DNA from: Hydra vulgaris
Lineage: Eukaryota > Cnidaria > Hydrozoa > Anthoathecata > Hydridae
Length of the DNA: 64,000 nucleotides
Assembly (NCBI RefSeq): GCF_038396675.1
Contig: NC_088932.1
Location: 30,733,501 to 30,797,500, forward strand
Direction: 5' to 3'
A program made the position numbers and the translations under genes. Below, piece after piece: positions 1,801 through 60,413 of this stretch. The stretch's first letter is position 1. Every line of letters starts with the position of its first letter. A model generated the notes under the pieces. It did not search any database and was not told the DNA's origin. It saw nothing but the letters and a program-made list of their open reading frames with translations.

Positions 1801-2308
1801 AACACACACACCAAAGTATGGTGTGTGTTTTTTTTTGCTTTTTTTGTGCGTAATCAATTATAAAAAAATTAATAAAAATTTATTGGTCATTTTAGACATA
1901 ATTATTTAACAAAAGCCCTATTTACCAAGCGAATATATTCCATTCAACCCCATAGTTAACCGTTTCCATTTTTAACTCATAACTTTTTACCGAAAATAAC
2001 AAATTTAATTTTGAAAAAATGGATAAAGATTGTCATAACTATTTCATTATATCCTCTATTTCATTCTATCCTCTATTTCATCCGCTTTTACTCTACTTTC
2101 TACAGATAACTTTATAAAAACACAGGTTTTAAGGTTTACATTTTTCCGTAATATTTCTTTATGTTTTAAAGCGTGTTAGTGCATTTTTTGACGTTAAAAT
2201 AATTAATTTAAAAAATTACGTTTTTCAAAAGAATTTTCCCAATAAAATCTTTAAATTGTTTATAGTATTGGCCCCAAGTTAAACTATCATTCTATTAAAA
2301 AAAAAACG

Positions 2309-2716
2309 TTCTGTAAATATTACGCACCGCTCAGGAGATCTATTAGATTTAGTAAAAAGTTCTGTAAATATTACGCACCGCTCAGGAGATCTATTAGATT
2401 TAGTAAAAAGTTCTGTAAATATTACGCACCGCTCAGGAGATCTATTAGATTTAGTAAAAAGTTCTGTAAATATTACGCACCGCTCAGGAGATCTATTAGA
2501 TTTAGTAAAAAGTTCTGTAAATATTACGCACCGCTCAGGAGATCTATTAAATTTAGTAAAAAGTTCTGTAAATATTACGCACCGCTCAGGAGATCTATTA
2601 AATTTAGTAAAAAGTTCTGTAAATATTACGCACCGCTCAGGAGATCTATTAAATTTAGTAAAAAGTTCTGTAAATATTACGCACCGCTCAGGAGATCTAT
2701 TAAATTTAGTAAGAGT
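2309..2716. repeat. 51-bp minisatellite, 8 copies
   Basis: Eight head-to-tail copies of a 51-base unit containing 'TTACGCACCGCTCAGGAGAT', starting at 2309, 2360, 2411, 2462, 2513, 2564, 2615 and 2666. The copies are almost identical. The one systematic difference is that copies 1-4 read 'ATTAGATTT' and copies 5-8 read 'ATTAAATTT'. The unit is a multiple of 3, but I see no sustained coding use. It is clearly more GC-rich than its surroundings. Confidence 0.95.
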
Positions 2717-2740
2717 TGCTCAACTAGCCCCGCCCTTTTC

Positions 2741-2840
2741 TTTGTTATAAATATAACTTGTAATGTAATTTGTTATAAATATAACTTGTAATGTAATTTG
2801 TTATAAATATAACTTGTAATGTAATTTGTTATAAATATAT
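2741..2840. repeat. 28-bp tandem repeat, about 3.6 copies
   Basis: Units of 28 bases ('TTTGTTATAAATATAACTTG' plus 'TAATGTAA') start at 2741, 2769, 2797 and 2825 (partial). Each contains the palindrome 'TTATAAATATAA'. It lies 24 bases after the 51-bp array, so two independent tandem expansions sit side by side. Confidence 0.9.
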
Positions 2841-4508: not shown

Positions 4509-5221
4509 CTACCTAAAGGCTGTCACGAAGAAAATCATGGAAGAGTTCCAATCAGCTTTAAGGTAGTTGTAAGCGGTACGATGATAGGGGGATTCAGATA
4601 AAGAAGAAGAATGAGATAACGTTTTTAGAGAGATCAAACCGTGATCCCAAGTACCTGAGGGTGAATGTAGAGAAACTGAGCACTGACTAGGATCAGAAAC
4701 AAAAAGTCGAGTAGAGAAAATAAATGATTCGGGTTGTCTGGAAAGCAAGTTGGAAAGTTGACTATTTGAGTTAGGGATTAAGAAAGACAAAAGTTGTGGG
4801 CTTTAATGCCTGCAAAGTCACTGACACTAAAGCTAAACCATTCAGTGTGATGAGCATTAAAGTCACCGACAACAACAATATTAGTTGATGGAAAAAGAAA
4901 GAGGGCTAGGTCAATTTGATCAGAAATAACATCAAAAAGAGTGCAGTCTTGAGATGAAGTAGAGCAGTATAGAAAAAAGAGAAAGACAGTAGAGTAACGT
5001 GCTGCTAAACGAATGCACATAAAAGAATAGTCTGTGGATTCAAACCTAGTTACCCTACAAAGGAGTAAATTCTTACGAATGTAAATGCTCAGGCCAAGCA
5101 TGTGACTATTAGAGTCTTTACAAATTAAAGGAAGAAAACCATCAACACTAAGATCACAAGATGAGACACCCAAACTCAAATAAGTCTCACAAAAAACAAG
5201 TATGTTTGGTGAACTTTGCAA
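4509..5221 (-). pseudogene. LINE apurinic/apyrimidinic-type endonuclease domain
   Basis: Two overlapping minus-strand frames (5221 to 4778, then 4790 to 4509) give the endonuclease that nicks target DNA for LINE insertion. The first frame holds 'VFCETYLS' near its start and the diagnostic 'NIVVVGDFNAHHTEW', in which GDFN is the catalytic/metal-binding motif. The second holds 'GTWDHGLISL', corresponding to the SDH-type end of the fold. The +/-1 shift near 4785 shows that the copy is broken. A host nuclease is unlikely given the linked RT fragment. Confidence 0.8.
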
Positions 5222-5795
5222 GAGATAAGACTCAACAGAAGAAAAGTTACTTCGAAGACCACGAATATTAGTGAATGATAGGTTTAGAGAACTTGGTTAT
5301 GACGATGGTTTTTTGTGTTTTACTGTTTTTGATACTTTATTCATTTTTAAATTTGTTTAAAGAACTTGACTCAAAACATAGATTGTACTTAGTACACTGT
5401 TTAATAGCCCAAACAATTGCCTCATTACTATTGATAAACCCTAAGCCGTAACAAAGGGCTCCAAATGTGGCCTTGGCAATACACACCGAAAGTACAAATA
5501 AGGATACCACCCATGCGCAACATAGCACTGTCAATATTTTGATATTTTTTAACTGTTAATGGAATCAGCCTCTCTGAGAGCTATCACAGAGTTCGGGAAA
5601 CCTGATTACCAGCCGGCCTCAGAACCATAAAACTGAGTTTTAGAGCTGTACTCTCATTAGGAGATAATAGAATGAGTTGCCTAGTCATAAAAACAGAGAC
5701 ACAAGCAAAACCCATGCATTGAGTCAAGAAGATCCAGCTTCAACATCCTAAACAAGAAACAATGTATTAAAAATACATCTGTCCCAGCCTGATAT
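5222..5795 (-). other. 5' part of the LINE, no intact frame
   Basis: The minus strand contains short frames only, for example 5337-5534, which reads 'LCYGLGFINSNEAIVW'. I do not recognise an ORF1 domain. The stretch ends abruptly at about 5795 where hAT sequence resumes, which sets the 5' boundary of this copy. Confidence 0.45.
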
Positions 5796-9126: not shown

Positions 9127-9130
9127 TTAA

Positions 9131-9779
9131 GAGCCGTTTTTTCTAAGAATCAGGCAAATTCCTGAAACTGTGGAAGTGACCTCCTCCAAATTGCTTGAAT
9201 TTTTTATATATTGATCAGAATATAGAAAAAACCTGTTGGGGAAAAAAAAAATTTTCAAAAATGTTTCGTTCACTCGGAATCTGGGCTTAAATTTTTGAGA
9301 TTTTTTTAAAAATTTTTAGAAATTAGTTTTTGCCACCTTTGAACCCATTTTTTTGGCAAGGCAAAAAGTTGCACATAGCTTTTGTAGTTAATATCAGACG
9401 TAACCCAAAAGCTCTCTCCAAAAAATATAAAAAAGTTGCGTGACACTGTGCGGTTGGCTAATTATCATAGTTCAAAAGTACAAAATCAATCAGTTTTGTC
9501 AACTTTTAATCGGAGTTAATTCTAGCGGCGAAGTGTTGCACACAATTTTTCTTTTAGGATTTGAAATTATCAAAGGTATTGAGTCTAAAAATGCAAAGAA
9601 AGTTATGTGATACCTAAGGCCTATTAATATATTAAGGCTTGAAATTGGAAAAAAATGTTTTAGTATACTTACAAAATGAACCATTACGGCAGAGGCGCTT
9701 AGTTTTGTAAAAATGTAAACATATCCAACTGTCAATACAAAAAGGTCCTAACATAATAATAAAAAAAATTCGTGTGATT
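9131..9779. repeat. Left terminal inverted repeat of the 6-kb transposon
   Basis: From 9199 inward this is the reverse complement of 14538-15117 with very few differences, for example near 9435 and 9505. The inner boundary is 'CGTGTGA' at about 9779. Bases 9143-9205 have no counterpart at the other end. The repeat contains a 78-codon frame (9735 to 9499) that reads outward, duplicated at the other end. Confidence 0.85.
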
Positions 9780-9983
9780 TTGTCACACGCATGATATAAC
9801 ATGAATTAAAAACTGAACAAAAATCTAACATCAAGATAACTATATTGCTAATTAAATAGAACATAAATCAAACATTTAAATGTTTTTCCATTTAAAAATT
9901 AGTTTTTCATTTATTAATAGAGTCATTTACACACATTATCCACCACATCACACATAATTTCTACTCTGCTGCAGTAAGTTTCT

Positions 9984-10184
9984 CTAAGAATAATGATATG
10001 ACTGTATATAGTCTTCTTCGGATAATGAATAATCGCCACAACCACTGATTAGAAAAGGAGCATTTACTAAACAGATAATTTTATCAGTTTGGTTATTTAT
10101 CTCCTCGGTAGTAACTGGCCAGCGAAAAGTATTCTTCTCTTGCCCGTTAATCATACAATTAACTCTGATCCCAGTTATAGATAC
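9984..10184 (-). CDS. Transposase-like gene, exon 4 (C-terminus)
   Basis: The minus-strand exon starts after an acceptor 'CTTTTAG' (10185) and ends at TAG (9984-9986). It gives 66 residues, about residues 1073-1138 of the model. It begins 'VSITGIRVNC', has 'NTFRWP' in the middle and ends 'LSEEDYIQSYHYS'. The join to exon 3 is in phase 0 at GAG|GTA. The F-R-W-P core followed by a loop ending S-L-S-E-E resembles the C-terminal module I recall from uncharacterised long proteins of fish, amphioxus and corals. That recollection was not checked by search. The exon is too short and too divided to be found by ORF length alone. Confidence 0.7.
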   Translation of the reverse strand, partial: VSITGIRVNCMINGQEKNTFRWPVTTEEINNQTDKIICLVNAPFLISGCGDYSLSEEDYIQSYHYS

Positions 10185-10393
10185 CTAAAAGTATTAGCGC
10201 AACATTTAAAATAATATAATAAAGAGTTTATGATTTGTTTAATTTTGCTTACATTCAATAAAACTTGTAAAGTCTTATATAATGTCATTCTGAAATTATT
10301 TTTACATTTTATTTATATTCCTTTTATTTTAGAGCACTGTTTTGTAAAACAAAATAAAAACTTGAAACTAATATATACTTTGAATAATATTAC

Positions 10394-10646
10394 CTCCACA
10401 ATATATCCAATATTCCATTGTTTTTCATATGCAACAGCAACCCAATCATTCACTTTCCATACAAGACAAATTTCTTTTGCAAGATTGGCGATGTCTTCCT
10501 CATATTTATTACCATCTTCATTGTCTCCTGCCAGATTAAAGTCATCATTTTCGCCATAAACTTCTTTGTTATCGTTAACCTGACTATTTTCATTATTTTC
10601 TGTTGTCGGTTCTACCAGCTTACCTTTTCTTTTCAGGTTACTAAAT
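10394..10646 (-). CDS. Transposase-like gene, exon 3
   Basis: Acceptor 'TTGTTATAG' lies just above 10646 and donor GAG|GTAATA just below 10394. The exon supplies one base to finish the split Arg codon (AG|A) of exon 2 and then 84 codons, model residues 989-1072. It starts 'FSNLKRKGKL', runs through an acidic Asn/Asp/Glu-rich linker and ends in a small aromatic module with 'VNDWVAVAYEKQWNIGYIVE'. That module has the look of a Tudor/SH3-like barrel strand pair. The phase match on both sides and the natural continuation of the upstream 'SLFSR' segment support the splice call. Introns 3 and 2 are 209 and 158 bases. Confidence 0.7.
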
Positions 10647-10804
10647 CTATAACAATATCAATTGTACATATTTTTAAACATATGTAAACAAACACACAAA
10701 ATTATAACTTTCACCTAAATTTTAATTTCATATTTGTAAAAGAACTATTTAACAGTCAGAAACATAATCTAATTTGCAAAAGTTTTGATAGCAACAATGC
10801 CTAC

Positions 10805-13611
10805 CTTGAAAATAAAGATCTTATCTGTTGGCTAGTTACATATTGATCAGGCGGAAGTTCTCTCCTCAGCTGCATGTGAACCTGCTCAGGGCTCATTTTA
10901 TTACCTGATTCTTCTCCACGAATAAAGTATTTATGCAACAGTTCTTTCTGCTGATTTGAAAATCTAAAAGAACTTCGAACTGGTAATGCCCAACCTTGCA
11001 ATAGAAAAATGTTCATGCAATGTGGTTTGTCTTTTACGGAAGCAATGTTAGAGGATGAAGAAATTGGCATATTTAGTTGTGAAGTAATTTTCATCTTATG
11101 AACAAACAAGTTGCGAACTTTATCCAATGATGTTAATGATTTCGGAACTGTATGAAGACCGGATAGCATGTGTTCTTCTAACTCAGCATCGCTTTCAAAT
11201 GATAAAGTACAATTCATTTCAGTGCAAAATCTTAATGAATATAATTGCCTGTCACTTCTTTTCTGTTTTTCCTTAAGTGACTTGTTACGCTTAATTGAAT
11301 TATCTGTTTTGCTATATGGCAACAACAACTTAATCGAGGGTTGAATTTTAAGATTTCCATACTCTTGTTCAATTCCCTCACCGATATTGAAATAACGCCA
11401 CATCTTCATACTTTTCTCACCAAACTCAAATGAGTGATAGTTGCTAATGTTCTTAATCTTTGGTCCAGTAACTACAGTTTTATCATTGCTAATTTGAGCA
11501 ACTGCTTCTTTTGCATCTTTAGCGCCAAAACTATAATGCATAGCCTTGTGTATATCTTCAGCAGTCAAAAGATTATTACCAGAGTCAACGTAACTCCTTA
11601 AAATTGTCTTTACAACTGCACTCTCCCTGTCACATTGATCTTTTCCACAACAGGGTTCATTATAATCATATCTCAGCAACTTTATATCTCTCTCTTTGCA
11701 TACATTGTAGATTGCTTCAGCTGAAAGATTTCCCTGATAGCAGCCGGCATTATCAGATTTGGTAAACATTTTCTTGATATGCGGTTGATCAATTCTGAAT
11801 TGGTCTAAAACTGCAGTGGCTAACGAAACAACATCACCTATTCCCTGATCACACCTATACATTGAAGTAAAGTAAACACGTTTGAATAACTTTCCTGCTA
11901 TTTTTATGAAGAATATATCCACATGTAAACTCATTCCTTTCTTGCCAAAATACTCTCTTTGGCCCTCTCTGTATCGAACCGGAAGAATTTCTTGACAAAA
12001 ATCTTTAAGCCAGAAAGCAGTTTCATCGTTTAATTGCTTAAAAGCTTCGATTTTTGCCTTTTTCTGTTGAGAATCTCTCATCAGGTGTTTTATGTAGTTG
12101 AATATATCCTTTACAGCAATTACCAAATCATAAATAGAATCAGCATCGTCAGAATTTTGAATTGTTAGTTCTTTGATCATCTCGATAGCTTTGCACAAAT
12201 CATAGCAATCGGCACATACCACTTCTGATATCTCTGTGTTGGATTGAAGATTTTTTTCAGATGGATCTGATAAGGCATGTTTTGAGCTATGAGAAGAAAT
12301 GTTTGAGTCATTGACACTACAATTGGTTTGATAACTTGTTTTCAAATACCTTTTTCCTTTTTCAAGGGCAGCTTCGAGAGATTAAGAACTAAATCTTTGT
12401 GCCAATTTTTGTAATGTTTAAAAACCATTCATGCCTGAAGCAGTAACATCATCTAATCCAGCTAAGCTTTTTCGACTTGAAGGTTTTATTGCATGCAATA
12501 CTTTCCACAAACTTGAATCAGATAATGGTATATAATTGTTTTCACTACAACTTTTTCGATAGAACATGATAGCGTGGCTATATTTTGTTGTCAGTATTGC
12601 ATGCACTATCTTTTGTTCTTCACCGCTGTCGTATTTTAATTTGGTTATTCCATAAGCAACATCATGCAAAATACCGCTTGTAAATATAAAGTCTAAGAAA
12701 TGTTCACACTTTGTTTGATCAAGACTAGATCGAACGAATACTTTCTTTTCTGGAAATGCCAACCCTTTATGAGATGCATGCCATTTTCTTGCTGTTTCTA
12801 TACGATGTTTGGTACACTCAAATGTGTTCATTATAAACTTTTTGGTATACTTGGTATGGTCTAATAATGAGAGGATAACTAACTTTCCCATGGAATCACT
12901 TTGCTTATATACTTTCTGAGCACGAATAATTTCAATTGGGAGAGGGCTATTTATTTCATCAACATTTTTACTGTTAAGAAAATCTATAAGTATTTCCTCT
13001 TGTCCAGGAGCAACAGCTACCGCAAATTTTTTCTTTAATAAGTTTTCTAGGCGAACATACTTGCGTTTTAACTTATCTTTAGTAGTATCTTCCAGATATT
13101 CGAACTTCCTTTTTAATCTAAATTTTATTGGACTTGCATTAAGAACCTCAGTTACACTCTCACGGCTTCTTAGAGATTCGTCCAAAATCTCCTGTGAAAC
13201 ATTAATTTCACCGGGATCAAATTCTTCATCTGGAGTAGCAGGTGTCATATATGTTTGTTCTTGTTGTGTTTGTGTTTCTGTACATAAATTGGTGTTTTCG
13301 TTGACTCTAGATAAAGCAGTTTCTTGCTTTAAATGGGTAAAACACAGCATTGCACCAACTGAAAATACTTCATTGTATCGCTTTGACATTGATATGACGA
13401 CATGTATTGGTGACGCCCTTAAAGCGGGAGATTTTTTTCCTTTTATATTTAGATGGTGAGGATGAAAGCATGTTTTTGGAGGACTCCATGCAATACCAAA
13501 CGTGTACCGGTGAAAAGCACATATTTGTTCATCCTTTTCAAGATTTCTTTTAAGTCTATTTGCAATAAGTCCATTTTCTTCCCAAATATTATTATCGTTT
13601 AATCGCATGAC
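10805..13611 (-). pseudogene. Transposase-like gene, exon 2 (DDE catalytic core), with two in-frame TAA codons
   Basis: The acceptor is 'GTTTTTAG' above 13611 and the donor is TCA AG|GTAGGC at 10804/10805. In one frame it encodes model residues 53-987 with TAA at 12418-12420 and 12382-12384 (codons 450 and 462). N-terminal Cys/His pairs follow 'EQICAFHRYTFG' and 'TCFHPHH', suggesting zinc binding. The catalytic region has 'GMSLHVDIFF' (Asp about 617), 'KSDNAGCYQG' (Asp about 672) and 'YDYNEPCCGKDQC' (Glu about 704), a plausible DDE triad. A C2H2-like finger (Cys 848, Cys 853, His 866, His 872) follows. The end 'SAEQ'-like helix 'VTSQQIRSLFSR' runs into exon 3. Sequence between the stops still looks coding ('TLQKLAQRF', 'SLEAALEKGKRYLK'), so point mutations rather than frameshifts are likely. 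Confidence 0.75.
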
Positions 13612-13908
13612 CTAAAAACAATTTTTTAAACAATTATTAAGTGTGTCATTTAAAGCATTGTTTATAATCTGACTCTTCACGAAAAATGTTTACAAGTTTG
13701 AAATACATTGTTGTTATTATTAAAATACAATATTGCAAGAGTGTGATTAATTTAGTGATTATTTATTAAAAGAGTGAGGAATTAATTAAAAGAGCTATTT
13801 TTTTTTGTTTAAAGAACTTTGTCTCAAAATCTTATTGCAGAGAAGTTATAAAGTATGTAATTATAAAAATTATATTACAGTCTGCGTAAATTTAAAATAC
13901 ATAATTAC

Positions 13909-14064
13909 CTTTAAGTTGATGAGGTGTTTCTTAACATCAACATCTCCCAGCTGATGAATGTAGAACATTTTGTTTATAATTTTATGTTTTTTGAATGATC
14001 CACAATTTCCTTTTGAAAAGCAACAACAGTTTTCATAAAAATATTTGTTTTGTTTCATACTCAA
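13909..14064 (-). CDS. Transposase-like gene, exon 1 (N-terminus)
   Basis: Fifty-two codons run from an ATG at 14062-14064 to the donor AAG|GTAATTATG. A second Met is the third codon. The sequence has 'NCCCFSKGNCG', a Cys cluster likely to bind zinc, then 'INKMFYIHQLGDVDVKKHL'. Joining to exon 2 at AAG|GTC keeps the frame (phase 0) and places Val before the 'MRLNDNN' start of the long frame. The intron is 297 bases. A zinc-binding N-terminus would fit DNA-end recognition, by analogy with other DDE transposases. Whether translation begins here or further upstream is not certain. Confidence 0.65.
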
Positions 14065-14537
14065 CTAAAAACAAGTTCTATTTATGCAGTACCTATTTCT
14101 CAATAGCAATGATAAAATATCTACTCTATTTATGCAAATTTTAAAGATCGTTAAAATAAAGTTAAGACATTTTTATGGTAAAGTAAACAACCGCCCACTA
14201 ACTTGTTTCTCCACAATCGTGATATCAGCGATTCTTCTTCCATTCGATCACCACAAGTTATTTGGTTATGACGTAAATTTAAATAATTCACTTCTGATCA
14301 TGTATTGTTTTTTATTATTATTTATTTCAATTGTTATGATTTCTATATCATAGTCAGAAACGCTTAAATTTTTTCTTAACATTACGCGCAATGTTTTGTG
14401 TAATGCTAAATGCTAATTTTGGATGATAGAAATTTTATTGTGAGCGAAAACCTCATCTGTGTGTCCAAAAAAATATCTCTTCGTACTTAATCATTTTTAA
14501 CAATTTGTACCTTTATTTTTAACTTAATATCTAAAGA
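14065..14537. other. Presumed promoter side of the transposase gene
   Basis: This is AT-rich DNA between the gene's first ATG and the right TIR. It should contain the promoter if transcription starts inside the element. No clear TATA box position can be defended because the whole stretch is TA-rich. The + strand frame at 14084-14353 has no recognisable content. Confidence 0.35.
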
Positions 14538-15121
14538 TCACACGAATTTTTTTTATTATTATGTTAGGACCTTTTTGTATTGACAGTTGGATACGTTTAC
14601 ATTTTTACAAAACTAAGCGCCTCTGCCGTAATGGTTCATTTTGTAAGTATTCTAAAACATTTTTTTCCAATTTCAAGCCTTAATATATTAATAGGCCTTA
14701 GGTATCACATAACTTTCTTTGCATTTTTAGACTCAATACCTTTGATAATTTCAAATCCTAAAAGAAAAATTGTGTGCAACACTTCGCCGCTAGAATTAAC
14801 TCCGATTAAAAATTGACAAAACTGATTGATTTTGTACTTTTGAACTATGATAATTAGCCAACCGCACAGTGTCACGCACCTTTTTTATATTTTTTGGAGA
14901 GAGCTTTTGGGTTACGTCTGATATTAACTACAAAAGCTATGTGCAACTTTTTGCCTTGCCAAAAAAATGGGTTCAAAGGTGGCAAAAACTAATTTCTAAA
15001 AATTTTTAAAAAAATCTCAAAAATTTAAGCCCAGATTCCGAGTGAACGAAACATTTTTGAAAATTTTTTTTTTCCCCAACAGGTTTTTTCTATATTCTGA
15101 TCAATATACAAAAAATGACTC
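14538..15121. repeat. Right terminal inverted repeat of the 6-kb transposon
   Basis: Reverse complement of 9199-9779. It ends 'ATTGATCAGAATATAG' complement, then 'AAAAAATGACTC', then TTAA. It carries the mirrored 78-codon outward frame (14580-14816), whose translation differs from the left copy only at the last residue. Confidence 0.9.
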
Positions 15122-15125
15122 TTAA

Positions 15126-17539: not shown

Positions 17540-18492
17540 CAGCCTTGCATCTGAAACTTTGTAGAACTGCTGCCCAGGCCTTTTGGATTTGTTCAAACAG
17601 TTGATCCTTATTACAAACACCTTCACGATTAATTGACGATCTCCCACAGGTTCTCGATAGGGTTGAGATCCGGAGATTGAGGCGACCAATCCATCACCGA
17701 TAGGTGGTTGTCTTGAAACCACTGCTTGACTACTTTTGCAGTGTGTTTCGGATCGTTGTCTTGCTGAAAATCCTATTTTATTGGCATATTCCATTCAGCA
17801 TGAGGTAACATAACATCTTTCAGGATATTTTTGTACATGAAACGGTCCATTATTCCATCGTTTCGATGTATTGGACCTAGACCGTTAGCAGAAAAATACC
17901 CCCAGACCATTACATTGCCTCCACCATGCTTCACGGTCTTATGGCAGTAACGTAAATCGAGGCGTTTTCCGGCCGGTAGACGTACACGGCAAATGCCATC
18001 GCTCCCAATGATGTTGAACTTCGATTCATCACTGAACAGGACAGTTCGCCATTTCTGCACATTCCAGTCAATATGAGATGTAGCAAACAGGAGTCTTTTC
18101 TTCTGGTTTTTTAGTGAAATCAGCGGTTTCTTTGCAGGGCGTCGAGAAAACAATCCGGCTTCAACAGCACGTCGTCTGATTGTTCGATCCGATACAGGCA
18201 GCTCTAATTGCTTTTGTATCTCGACTGATAATATCCAGGGATCCTTCTTGACGGATCTGACGATCATAGAATCCTCTCTAGAAGTGGTGGAACGCGGTCT
18301 TCCACCTTTGTTATCTGCTGCCAACTTCCCCGTAGAACGATATTTGGAACATAGTCTTGATACGGTCCTTTTTTTTACGCGATATTTATCACAAATACTT
18401 TTTTGCGACATTCCACTTACGTAATCGCCAATAATTTTCTTTCTTAGTTCCAATCCAAGACTGTTGGGAGCCATTTTTGCACTTGAAGTCAT
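17540..18492 (-). pseudogene. Tc1-like transposase, one stop and one frameshift
   Basis: The reading starts at ATG 18490-18492. It has an N-terminal paired-type helix-turn-helix region ('GMSQKSICDKYRVKKRTVSR'), a second HTH with 'GRPRSTTSRED', and the DD34E catalytic core: 'VLFSDESKFN' (first Asp), then '[11 protein letters not shown]' (second Asp), then '[11 protein letters not shown]' (Glu). The frame is cut by a TAG at 17773-17775 where Trp is expected before 'DFQQDND'. It shifts by one base after 'LWEIVN'. The last segment in the new frame ends near 17520. Both lesions make it inactive. The rest is close to the family's usual length of about 340 residues. Confidence 0.9.
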
Positions 18493-18799
18493 AAAAATAA
18501 TAAAAATAAATAATCACGCTTCTCAAGGCTTTACCGTGTTACATTTACCTTGTGATGCTACAATAATGCTTTGTGGAACACAACGTCTTGGTTGAATGTG
18601 GACTGTATTGATGTAATGAAACACTTGTTGTATTTCACTTCTTGTATTGATGTTCTTCGATAAAACACTTTGATAAAACTCACTTCGATAAACTGTCTTG
18701 ATAATACTGACTGATTGACTTCCATATACTGACTGAATTACATGTCGATTTACATTTCTCTTATATAGTAAAATGAACCTGTGTGAACCTGTTCTGGAA

Positions 18800-25649: not shown

Positions 25650-26200
25650 AGGACTTCAAGAAGATCGTAATGACCTTTTCACGATGCCCTTAACAATATA
25701 AAACTCTATTTTCTTCTTCAATAAAAATATCTATATACCTTATAAAATAGATATATACAAAAAATATATAACCACAAAATATATCATAAATTTAATACTC
25801 TACATACTTCAAAAGTAAAACTCACAATAAAACAAAACAAATCAATATGGAGTATAGCAACTAAAAATAATCAATATGGAGTTTAGCAACTAAAATTTTT
25901 TTTTTTTAAATAATAATAAATTAAGAACACTTTTTGTAGAAAAAATAATTTTTAATATAGATTGGAACAGGTCAATTCAGATGAAAAAACAAAATTAGGC
26001 CGCACTATTCTAGAGAAAAGGTCCAAGATAAGATATACAAAATTGAGCTTTTTTATTTTTGCAAATATTTTTTTTAGAATGCCATTATTACGTAGCACTA
26101 GTGCTAAGTAAAAAAAATTAATGAAAATGGTGTACTAAAAAAATTCCACTTATGGCCACTTTTTGAGTTTTTCGCTTTATAGTGCACTATATAAATACAT
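25650..26200. other. No gene seen
   Basis: AT-rich. A short direct repeat 'AATCAATATGGAGT(A/T)TAGCAA' occurs at about 25838 and 25868. Nothing else. Confidence 0.5.
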
Positions 26201-26871
<671 letters not shown>

Positions 26872-27417: not shown

Positions 27418-27499
27418 TTATATATATATATATATATAATGTTTATAAGAAATTATATCTAAAATGTTATTCAAAATTAAAATATTTTTTTAAAATATT

Positions 27500-27752
<253 letters not shown>

Positions 27753-27755
<3 letters not shown>

Positions 27756-28479
27756 CATAGATTTAATTTACAATTAAAACTCTGGTAAATAAATTTAGAA
27801 ACTAAAGACAATACAGAGAAAAAATTAACGGACAAATAAACTTGTTACAAACCAATTAAAAATTATATTACAAATTATGACAAAATAAACTTCCTAATAT
27901 TAAAATATTAATAATAATAATAATATAGTAAGTTAGATAGATAAATTTATAATATAATGAGATGTTTGTTTATTTAAAGAAGGATTTTCCCATTTAATAT
28001 GAAGTGCTTCTTTTATTTTTAATTTGTGAATGGTAGAGGCAGTATCTAAAATCTGAAAGCAATCATAATTAGTTAGTGTTTTACAATTAATGGATGAGTT
28101 TAAATGTTTTAAAATATGCGATTGCTTGTCACTCGTAAGGTGCTCATTTATCCGTGTTGTCAAATGTCTGGAGGTTTCTCCAATATAACTGGCGTTACAG
28201 CCAGCACAAGAAAATTTGTAGACAACGTTAGATTTAAGCATCTTAGGAAGTGGATCTTTTATGCAAAAATTGTTTTTTAATTTATCGGTTGTGAATATAA
28301 ACTTGATTATTACATTTTTACTATACTTTTTAATAATTTTATCAATTTTAGTTTTAGTGAAGTTTGAGTAAAATCCAATAAATGGAAGCTTAAAATATCT
28401 TATATTAGTATTATCAACAGTATTTATAACAGGTGGATTAATTTTCTTTTCAACATATAATTTAATTTCAGTGTCGATA
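27753..28479 (-). mobile_element. Penelope-like element, 5'-truncated inverted copy
   Basis: A minus-strand copy nearly identical to the 3' part of the + copy (about 31454-32185). It includes the GIY-YIG endonuclease (28241 to 27933: 'YKFSCAGCNASYIGETSRHL', then the Arg/Glu-containing 'TRINEH') and the 3' untranslated region. Coding is intact from about 28470 to 27933. It faces the + copy head to head at 28479/28480. Partial inverted copies joined to a longer copy are a known outcome of Penelope-like element integration. Confidence 0.85.
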
Positions 28480-28499
28480 ACTTTTTTTAAAAATTTAAA

Positions 28500-28969: not shown

Positions 28970-30905
28970 ATTTTTTTTTTTTTTTTTTTTTTTTTTATAA
29001 AATAATAAATATTTACAATTTTTTATAACATTATCTACGGTTTTATGTTTTTACAATGTATGGTTTTACACTTTTTCTTAGATATATACATTTTCTGTTT
29101 TATAACTTTTATTACATAATTTTTGTATTTTTTTTATTTTTTTGTGTTTTTTTGATTTTATATTTTTTTTTGTGTTTATTGGTTTTATATTTTTTTTGTA
29201 TTTTTTTGTTTTAAATTTTTTTGCCGTTGTGCGGAAAGATATCAAGAGTTTAGATTAAGTTAAAAAAAGAAGAAATTTTAAAATAGATTAAGGAAAGGTT
29301 CATAAGGTAAAAAGAGTGATTTATATGCAAAAAAATTAAAAAAGGAGTTACAGGACTTTTACATAAACATTACGTTACGAAAATTTTAGATAAAAAAAAA
29401 ATTTTTGTGTTAAAATAATATATCATAAAATAAAGGCTGGCAGTGATTTGCTTGTTTTTTATAATAATAAGTTTGTTGTATAACATAAAAAAAATTGCAA
29501 GAGGGAAGGAAATCTTTACTAAACATACAACGAGCCGTTGTTTTAATTTAGCTCATATGTTTAGTTTCAGACTTCCATTCTCTACTTGACAGAAAACATT
29601 TTTAATACAAAAATACTCACAGAAAATATCCGTAGTGTTTCTACGGACATGATAATTATATTTTAAGGTAATAATATTCCTGATGTTCCTGATTATTACC
29701 CTGATCACTGCCATTGGGTCAATTTTTTTGTTACTAAACATGTGGTGGCATCTACTGTTCCATATTGCACTCATTATGGTTTGAGTGAGTGTCAACAGCA
29801 GCTGCGAAGTGGGGTTTTTCTCCGATAAATTCGCTGTTTCAATTGAGAAGATCGAATTTATCGGAGAAAAGTTGTTTTGGGATGTCAAGGAGTTATATAC
29901 ATGTTTAAAATACTCCCAAATTTCAACAGAAGGAGGACAGTAGGCAAAGATATGCATGTTGTCCTCGATTTTACCACAGGTTTTGCATTTGTTATTTTTG
30001 ACGATCTGCTGCCTTGTGCTTTTGGCTAGCAAGGCCGCAGAAGGTAAACTGTTGTGTAAAAAACGAAAGAGGATGTTTTGAGTTGGTCCGCATGCGTGGG
30101 AGGTGAAGTTTTTTTTCCAAATTTGGGTCCACGGCATTGTTGTTTTTGTTGAACCGTTCCAGAAAAGTTCTGCTGGCACAACTGTCTTTTTGTTTTTTGC
30201 CACTTCTAAGTAAAAATTTTTTGTTGTTTTTAGGGGGATGTTAAATAGGGACCCGTTTTTGCCTAATATTTCTATTGTTGTTTTGTAGTACTGAGACGTT
30301 TTGTTGTCCCAGTGTTTTGGAAAATTGTTCTGCTTTAAAAAGTTCCAGCTTTGGTTTTGGTTTGCAAATTTTATAAGTGAACTCGCCAACCAATACTTTG
30401 AAAAGTAGTAATAATCGTGAGCTTTGTCCTCTTCGCATTCTTTCAGTTGAAAGAGTGTTTTGAGGCGAAGTGCAAGACTTTGCTCCTTCGGTGATAAAAT
30501 TCCGAGACCCCCGCTTTTGACGGGTAAGAAAAGTGTCTCTCTCTTGACCGGATTGTAATTGGTCTTTTGCCACAGGTTTTCGAAAATGGCTTTGTGCAGA
30601 CGTTCTATTACCCATTCGGGAACGGGTAGCACGTTTGCCAGAAACCACACTTTTGACATTGCTAACGTATTTGTCAACGTAGTCTTTCCCCTAAGTGACA
30701 AAGTACGTAGTCCCAGAAACTTGAGTTTTTTCTCTATTTTGTTTAGAGTTACTAACCAGTTGAAATTGGTAGTATCGCTCAGTCTGGTGTAAAAAGTAAC
30801 ACCTAATATTTTGAAACCGGTGTTGTTGTTCCACTCTATGTCGTCCAATTCTGGGTACATTTTAGGATCAAAACCCCCAAGGGCGAGACCCTTGGTTTTT
30901 TTCAA
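28970..30905 (-). mobile_element. 5'-truncated Tx1/L1-like LINE inserted in the Penelope element
   Basis: A minus-strand LINE with a run of about 26 T (poly-A on its own strand) at 28972-28997, a long T-rich 3' untranslated region (29000-29550) and RT C-terminal coding sequence to 30905. The host sequence 'TTCAAAAAATT' stands on both sides (about 28960-28971 and 30901-30913), a target-site duplication of about 11 bp. Removing the insert restores the Penelope reading 'FKKLLQISTSG'. Confidence 0.85.
29553..30905 (-). pseudogene. Tx1/L1-like LINE RT C-terminal region (450 codons, open)
   Basis: An uninterrupted 450-codon frame, the longest intact frame of any LINE in the window. It begins after the RT palm ('FKILGVTFYTRLSDTTNFNW'), runs through the thumb and linker ('KSGGLGILSPKEQSLALRLK') and carries a C-terminal zinc knuckle 'CKTCGKIEDNMHIFAYC' of the C-x2-C...H...C kind found in L1/Tx1-clade ORF2. 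It lacks the endonuclease and the catalytic YADD region because of 5' truncation. The frame simply enters Penelope sequence at its upstream end. The lack of stops suggests a young insertion. Confidence 0.8.
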
Positions 30906-31998
30906 AAAATTACTTCAAATTTCAACGTCAGGTTCTCATTTCTTATTTAACGGAAAATTTTATGATCAATTAGATGGCGTTGCAATGGGTTCTCCTTTAG
31001 CACCAATTTTAGCTAATATGTTTATCGGTTTTCATGAACAAACGTGGGTTAATAATTGCTCTTCCTCCATACCGTTTTTTTATAAACGTTATGTGGATGA
31101 CATAATAGCAATTTTTAATTCAGAGTTTGAAGCGCAAGAATTCTTTAAACATCTCAATAGACAACCCAAAAACTTAAGATTTACTATGGAAAAAGAAAAA
31201 GACAACCAAATTCCATTTTTGGATGTTCTTATTAATAAGTCTAATTCACTCTCTACATCAGTTTATCACAAAAAAACATACACGGGTCTTTTACAAAATT
31301 TCTTTAGTTTTGTCCCTTCATGTTACAAAACTGGTCTTATACGTTGCTTGATTGATCGAACATATAAAATTAACAACACGTGGTTTGGATTTGATAAGGA
31401 TATAAAAAATCTTTCTTTAGTTTTAAAAAATAATCAATTTCCGCAAAAAGTTATCGACACTGAAATTAAATTATATGTTGAAAAGAAAATTAATCCACCT
31501 GTTATAAATACTGTTGATAATACTAATATAAGATATTTTAAGCTTCCATTTATTGGGTTTTACTCAAACTTCACTAAAACTAAAATTGATAAAATTATTA
31601 AAAAGTATTGTAAAAATGTAATAATCAAGTTTATATTCACAACCGATAAATTAAAAAACAATTTTTGCATAAAAGATCCACTTCCTAAGATGCTTAAATC
31701 TAACGTTGTCTACAAATTTTCTTGTGCTGGCTGTAACGCCAGTTATATTGGAGAAACCTCCAGACATTTGGCAACACGGATAAATGAGCACCTTACGAGT
31801 GACAAGCAATCGCATATTTTAAAACATTTAAACTCATCCATTAATTGTAAAACACTAACTAATTATGATTGCTTTCAGATTTTAGATACTGCCTCTACCA
31901 TTCACAAATTAAAAGTAAAAGAAGCACTTCATATTAAATGGGAAAATCCTTCTTTAAATAAACAAACATCTCATTATATTATAAATTTATCTATCTAA
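30906..31998 (+). pseudogene. Penelope RT C-terminal part plus GIY-YIG endonuclease (open to the natural stop)
   Basis: Following the LINE the frame reads 'LLQISTSGSHFLFNGKFYDQ', motif B 'DGVAMGSPLAPILANMF', catalytic 'YKRYVDDIIAIF' (YVDD) and 'IPFLDVLINKSNSLSTSVY', then a Lys-rich linker. The GIY-YIG domain 'VVYKFSCAGCNASYIGETSR', with a Cys pair, comes next, and the frame ends 'SHYIINLSI' and TAA. It is open for about 360 codons. The enzyme nicks target DNA and primes reverse transcription. It is called a pseudogene because its N-terminal half is separated and mutated. Confidence 0.85.
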
Positions 31999-32223
31999 CT
32001 TACTATATTATTATTATTATTAATATTTTAATATTAGGAAGTTTATTTTGTCATAATTTGTAATATAATTTTTAATTGGTTTGTAACAAGTTTATTTGTC
32101 CGTTAATTTTTTCTCTGTATTGTCTTCAGTTTCTAAATTTATTTACCAGAGTTTTAATTGTAAATTAAATCTTATGAAAATGTAGATTCTAAATTTATTT
32201 ACCAGAGTTTTAATTGTAAATTA

Positions 32224-44941: not shown

Positions 44942-45097
<156 letters not shown>

Positions 45098-45114
45098 TAA
45101 TTAGTTTATTGCAG

Positions 45115-52420: not shown

Positions 52421-53825
<1,405 letters not shown>

Positions 53826-53970
53826 ATGTAGGTAGCTTAAATTTTTCAATGCTAAGATTAATATTTGTATAGGAATGCTATTTGGCCCAGTGCTTTTTTT
53901 AGGGTTTATACTGGATATATAATCATTTATTTCTTGTTTTAACTGATGATGACTACATGTGGTCAAAACA
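53826..53970 (-). pseudogene. LINE RT N-terminal scrap
   Basis: The minus strand from 53966 reads 'HHQLKQEINDYISSINPKKS' then 'TGPNSIPIQILI', the conserved segment just before the RT fingers in CR1/Jockey-type LINEs (I..INP.KS.GPN.IPI.IL). It is cut off by the microsatellite at 53825. Confidence 0.65.

Positions 53971-60074: not shown

Positions 60075-60413
<339 letters not shown>

Follow-up and report, generated by a model that had tools for sequence, protein, structure and literature searches.

Three named superfamilies of DNA transposons bear on the element considered here. Sola is described as having a transposase with three catalytic aspartates (DDD), a 4-bp target site duplication (TSD), terminal inverted repeats (TIRs) of 11-1124 bp and a length of mostly 2-9 kb (PMC10741241), and copies of Sola-3 are reported in Acropora corals (PMC12314368). 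Kolobok elements have a TTAA TSD, 5'-RR...YY-3' termini and a C/DxxH motif between the second D and the last E of the transposase (PMC9587614), and these transposases usually, not universally, carry a THAP domain (PMC6004289). The piggyBac elements have CC[C/T]T termini and TIRs of generally 12-19 bp (PMC2872659). We consider a 64,000-nucleotide stretch of the Hydra vulgaris genome (C13:30733501-30797500, called the window below), in which an element at 9131-15121 lies between two TTAA tetranucleotides, with GAGCCGTTTTTT as its first bases and AAAAAATGACTC as its last. We are highly confident that a real lineage of cut-and-paste DNA transposons is at hand, and that the window holds a defective member of a young family with Sola-like anatomy. 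The features that define the element are as follows.

9127..9130, no strand: left target site duplication TTAA (TTAA in 19 of 21 copies, TTAC in 2; empty sites hold one)
15122..15125, no strand: right target site duplication TTAA, from the window sequence
9131..9781, plus strand: left terminal inverted repeat, starting with GAGCCGTTTTTTCTAAGAATCAGGCA, from the inverted-repeat search and copy alignments
14534..15121, minus strand: right terminal inverted repeat, which has lost 54 bp through a private deletion, from the repeat search and copy comparison
9131..9156, plus strand: 26-bp terminal box GAG...TT.T.T...A.A...AGGC., shared in part between families

The genome searched has 911,502,276 bases in 15 contigs; 20 copies of the element, taken from the best matches, were fetched from it, and the window copy was added to give a set of 21. 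Within the window, 9199-9781 pairs with 14534-15116 over 583 nt at 99% complementarity, and the outermost portion of the repeat is unaligned because the window copy carries a deletion there. The TIRs of full copies are about 650 bp long, for example 652 and 643 bp at 97.5% identity in copy L009. The earlier note on this DNA had proposed very long TIRs of nearly 600 bp; the great length stands, and the figure is right for the window but too low for full copies, the window having lost 54 bp. The sequence TTAAGAGYCRTTTT is found at 9127-9140 (plus strand) and 15112-15125 (minus strand) with zero mismatches, and no other site of the window matches it with one mismatch or none. Shuffled windows contain on average 0.53 matches at the same tolerance, with at least two in 10 of 100 shuffles, so that the motif by itself is weak evidence and the demonstration comes from the repeats and the further copies.

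The left terminus is common to all 20 fetched copies (one base is changed in two of them), and the right terminus, GAGTCATTTTTTGTAAGAATCAGGCA when read inward, is common to the 18 in which a right end is recognised; in the other 2 of the 20 it was not. The alignment is unbroken over window positions 9127-15116 in 15 of the 20, and the element measures 6040-6049 bp in 14 of the 18 copies that have both ends. The flanks differ from copy to copy, and the boundaries are therefore real. Among these 18 copies the TSD pair is TTAA/TTAA in 16 (copy L018, for one, has TTAA flanks at both ends), TTAC/TTAC in one, which is a duplicated variant target, and TTAC/TTAA in one. The two flanks of each of five insertions were joined and used as queries against the genome; those of L026, L021 and L022 matched across the junction elsewhere (40 scored matches). 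Five empty sites of these three insertions were read, and each has a single TTAA at a gapless junction, which makes TTAA host sequence that is duplicated at insertion and lies outside the element. TIRs at fixed ends in many copies, together with a target duplication that has its empty sites, are the marks of cut-and-paste transposition. The exact ends and the TTAA target proposed in the earlier note are thus borne out by the shared termini, the differing flanks and the empty sites, and the genome search for further TTAA-flanked copies that it suggested has returned many, one of them with the TTAC duplication.

How recent is the spread of this family? With the first 1001 bp as query, all 40 scored matches (window included), among 632 candidates, have 99-100% identity; with a 526-residue frame of the gene, all 82 scored matches, among 1376 candidates, have 97-100%. 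Copies of the family are accordingly 97-100% identical. Over the 21 copies, 369 substitutions are private as against 27 common to two copies, the mean distance from the majority sequence is 0.43%, and the pairwise mean is 0.85%. The private changes in exon 2 comprise 62 silent, 164 replacement and 19 stop changes, close to the neutral expectation of 0.22/0.72/0.06. Star-like divergence of this kind is what a recent burst out of one or a few sources would leave, followed by what would be unconstrained decay. The ends, the 4-bp target duplication and the recent spread are established by these comparisons. As a separate observation, two copies of the transposase exon face in opposite directions at G000:C5:32967150-32968727 (plus strand) and 32969914-32971491 (minus strand), with about 1.2 kb between them; the spacing is too small for two full 6-kb elements, and the pair is read as nested or rearranged.

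The TIRs enclose a single minus-strand gene of four exons, with GT..AG at all three introns and the exons as the earlier note had described them. Its parts are listed in the order of the reading frame, followed by the features within exon 2.

13909..14058, minus strand: exon 1, which has 50 codons and contains a Cys cluster, from the spliced gene model
10805..13611, minus strand: exon 2 (2807 nt) with the probable catalytic core, a C2H2 finger and a module ending RSLFSR, from the gene model and copies
10394..10646, minus strand: exon 3 with the VNDWVAVAYEKQW module, from the spliced gene model
9984..10184, minus strand: exon 4 with the NTFRWP module, its final residues changed by a private frameshift
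11629..11919, minus strand: stretch containing the proposed DDD triad (HVD, KSDN, QCDR), kept in family 2 and in those parts of family 3 that can be read
11152..11226, minus strand: C2H2 finger CTEMNCTLSFESDAELEEHMLSGLH, present in family 2 too

At the level of sequence, a spliced reading frame of 1,144 residues is established for the family. Every exon border was found exactly in 14 of the 21 copies (window included; the other seven were excluded from the count), and two of these 14 have the full frame of 1,144 codons, slightly more than the approximately 1,138 codons first proposed. A stop-free exon-2 frame of 936-938 codons is present in 28 of the 82 scored matches. The window copy is defective, and the earlier description of it as complete-looking does not hold for its function. 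Its reading frame is interrupted by stops at codons 447 and 459, numbered on the whole protein, and these occur in none of the 19 copies (of the 20 fetched) that are readable there and with which its gene defects were compared. It also lacks one base near 10006, which changes the last residues: its exon 4 has 66 codons, and a 74-codon ending is found in 17 of 19 exon-4 sequences, the window among the 19. In its right TIR, 54 bp are gone close to the terminus, as counted from the window and copy sequences; the terminal box keeps its outermost 15 bases and has lost its inner part, including AGGCA. This deletion apparently arose by recombination between two T runs. The window copy would be mobile only with protein from an intact copy, and the loss in the right-end box would make even that doubtful.

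We infer that the gene product is the transposase. The aspartates of HVD, SDN and QCDR, at residues 155, 210 and 251 of the 526-residue frame, are probably the catalytic triad of an RNase-H-type core, and the third acidic position is proposed to be the D of GKDQCDRE. HVD, KSDNA and GKDQCDRE are kept in family 1 (that of the window), in family 2 and in such pieces of family 3 as can be read, and the C2H2 finger stands 175-176 residues past the second D in families 1 and 2 alike. A 204-residue composite sequence, meant to represent uncharacterised proteins of corals, molluscs and fish and corresponding to no database record, matches the family at best with E 9.7e-29 and about 30% identity. The uncharacterised animal relatives proposed in the earlier note agree with this match, which is one to the composite.

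The next question is whether the gene and its ends are found together in other families of the same genome. Family 2, represented by L043 and six end pieces, has 423 of 901 residues identical to family 1 (47%), TIRs of about 675 bp at 94%, and TTAA followed by GAGCCATTTTCTG at both ends in all four copies examined. The peptide YDYNEP written in other codons is found at 81 places (control 32), a search that led to L056, a stop-ridden relative of family 2, and to L057, which defines family 3. Pieces of L057 have 33% to 73% identity to family 2 (37-50% in the long ones), and it carries a decayed relative of the gene beside a TTAA-flanked GAG end. Its right end is TTAA followed by GAGCTATTGTCTGAG; its left end was looked for and not found. 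A search with this right end gave ten more ends in six places, and family 3 rests on these and on L057; nine of the ten ends have TTAA and one has TTGA, and seven begin with GAG after the target. The flanks of L058 and L062, and likewise those of L059 and L063, look alike on both sides, with the two family-3 elements located at C1:70.53 Mb and C1:71.83 Mb, and two of the six places may represent one insertion later duplicated with its chromosome segment.

Common to the terminal boxes of the three families are GAG, AGGC and a number of positions with T or A. Over 26 bp, families 1 and 2 agree at 19-21 positions (20 for left against left) and families 2 and 3 at 20-22, as compared with a mean of 7.5 and a maximum of 18 in 20000 random pairs of 26-mers from the TIRs. 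Another 26-bp stretch, at about 9635-9660 of the window and likewise in L043, lies about 504 bp from the left end and agrees at 20 of 26 positions between families 1 and 2; it is perhaps an inner binding site. Two further pattern searches added no family. DNAGCY in other codons is found at four places (control 1), all inside matches to the 204-residue composite and hence within known matches, and the pattern GKGxCDRxA yielded none. In scans with short peptide patterns, no viral or prokaryote relative was confirmed with the 526-residue frame or the two-family alignment. A viral contig, L055, gave the sole DNAGCYH match; the match has no long frame resembling the protein around it and was judged to be chance.

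To which superfamily does the family belong? The anatomy, that is, a probable DDD core, a 4-bp target, long repeats and a length of 6 kb, fits Sola best when compared by description alone: the TSD is of the same size, the TIRs fall within 11-1124 bp and the length within 2-9 kb. On balance we favour placing the family in Sola. A special likeness to group 3 of Sola, through the TTAA target and the GAG termini, is presumed; no such statement was found in the literature searched. Repbase may already name the family.

A number of points weigh against the reading of a young cut-and-paste family with Sola-like anatomy. The likeness to Sola is one of described anatomy. The proposed triad draws on residues kept in three families of a single genome. 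Pfam, with matches inspected up to E 10, finds no transposase domain in the protein of the element and gives sub-threshold matches to unrelated entries (NAD_binding_6 at E 0.027, Herpes_UL73 at 0.13, CEP19 at 0.072); a PDB sequence search of the protein gives no match. In the composite that we presume to represent animal relatives, the HVD position is not aspartate, which speaks against the first D if the composite is faithful. Twelve of the 14 copies with all exon borders found, including the window copy, lack the full frame. The divergence was estimated on best matches and is tilted to young copies, so the entire family may be older. As for the related families, the boxes of families 1 and 3 agree at only 15-16 of 26 positions, the inner TIR stretch matches family 2 as well as the terminal box does, and the family-3 ends do not appear to be all independent insertions.

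Of the other classifications, a TTAA-targeting transposon group of its own, outside every named superfamily, is unlikely, though it deserves serious weight. It draws on the lack of a convincing Pfam or PDB match, on the target shared by the related families and on the lack of a viral or prokaryote relative in the short-pattern scans. The separate group that the earlier note offered as one option is not established, however, as the anatomy fits Sola and the described features of that superfamily are all compatible (PMC10741241). We also consider it improbable that the family marks an animal TTAA superfamily distinct from the three described at the outset, one that would combine a three-aspartate core, GAG...CTC ends and a multi-module protein of 1,144 residues and is probably still active.

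Less probable again is a diverged Kolobok in which the catalytic glutamate would lie past the C2H2 finger, further along the protein. The TTAA duplication and the 5'-RR/YY-3' termini (GA...TC here) do agree with the description of Kolobok (PMC9587614), and the zinc finger found here after the second D resembles the one that almost all Kolobok transposases are said to have between the second D and the last E. Against this, no [CD]xxH past the second D is common to the two families tested (there is none in the stretch of family 2 and one in family 1, 241 residues downstream), although the last acidic residue is itself unproven. Moreover, Pfam finds no THAP domain in the N-terminal 186 residues up to E 10, and the termini are GAG as compared with AG in the frog elements, so that the placement near Kolobok in the earlier note finds no support in conserved motifs. 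The piggyBac superfamily shares the TTAA duplication, but its CC[C/T]T ends and short TIRs differ from the GAGYCR termini and TIRs of about 650 bp found here, and there is no piggyBac Pfam match; it is ruled out, as the earlier note had judged from the motifs. Any classification other than Sola, Kolobok or an unnamed group is very improbable.

Equally remote is a non-autonomous passenger whose gene was captured from the host or domesticated by it, for while the window copy has stops and only 2 of the 14 readable copies keep the full frame, intact frames exist, family 2 carries this gene at 47% identity, again enclosed by TIRs and at the same target, L057 has its decayed relative beside a TTAA-flanked GAG end, and the changes that followed insertion are for the most part private and of a neutral character.

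A mechanism can be proposed from the sequences of the family. The protein would bind the terminal box (GAGYCRTT...AGGCA in family 1) and perhaps also inner sites in the TIRs through its Cys/His and C2H2 modules. The RNase-H-type core with its three aspartates (HVD, SDN, QCDR) would cut both ends, and the excised DNA would join a 4-bp staggered cut at TTAA, whose repair would give the duplication. Given the recent multiplication and the intact sister frames, it is realistic to regard the family as a candidate active element, and it may serve as a gene-transfer tool with a defined target, like piggyBac. If the presumed kinship is confirmed, the family would also explain a group of long uncharacterised animal proteins that we presume to exist in corals, molluscs and fish.

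The window has several other features outside the element. The open frame at 17773-18513 (minus strand) has a helix-turn-helix and a VLFSDESKFN stretch, and we take it to be a Tc1/mariner-type transposase. The segments 27759-28495 and 31436-32172 form a 737-nt inverted pair at 99%, with two near-identical frame ends containing YIGETSRHL; these presumably correspond to the GIY-YIG end of Penelope-like elements. The frames at 29553-30914 and 4778-5296 (both minus strand) are presumably parts of non-LTR (long terminal repeat) retrotransposons, namely a reverse-transcriptase C-terminus and an endonuclease. The frame at 2255-2791 (plus strand) is a tandem repeat of KFCKYYAPLRRSIRFSK with eight units. 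A dispersed repeat of about 160-280 nt is found in both orientations at 26188-26431, 27447-27669, 44944-45106, 53528-53826 and 60104-60411, among the 25 longest of 242 repeat pairs.

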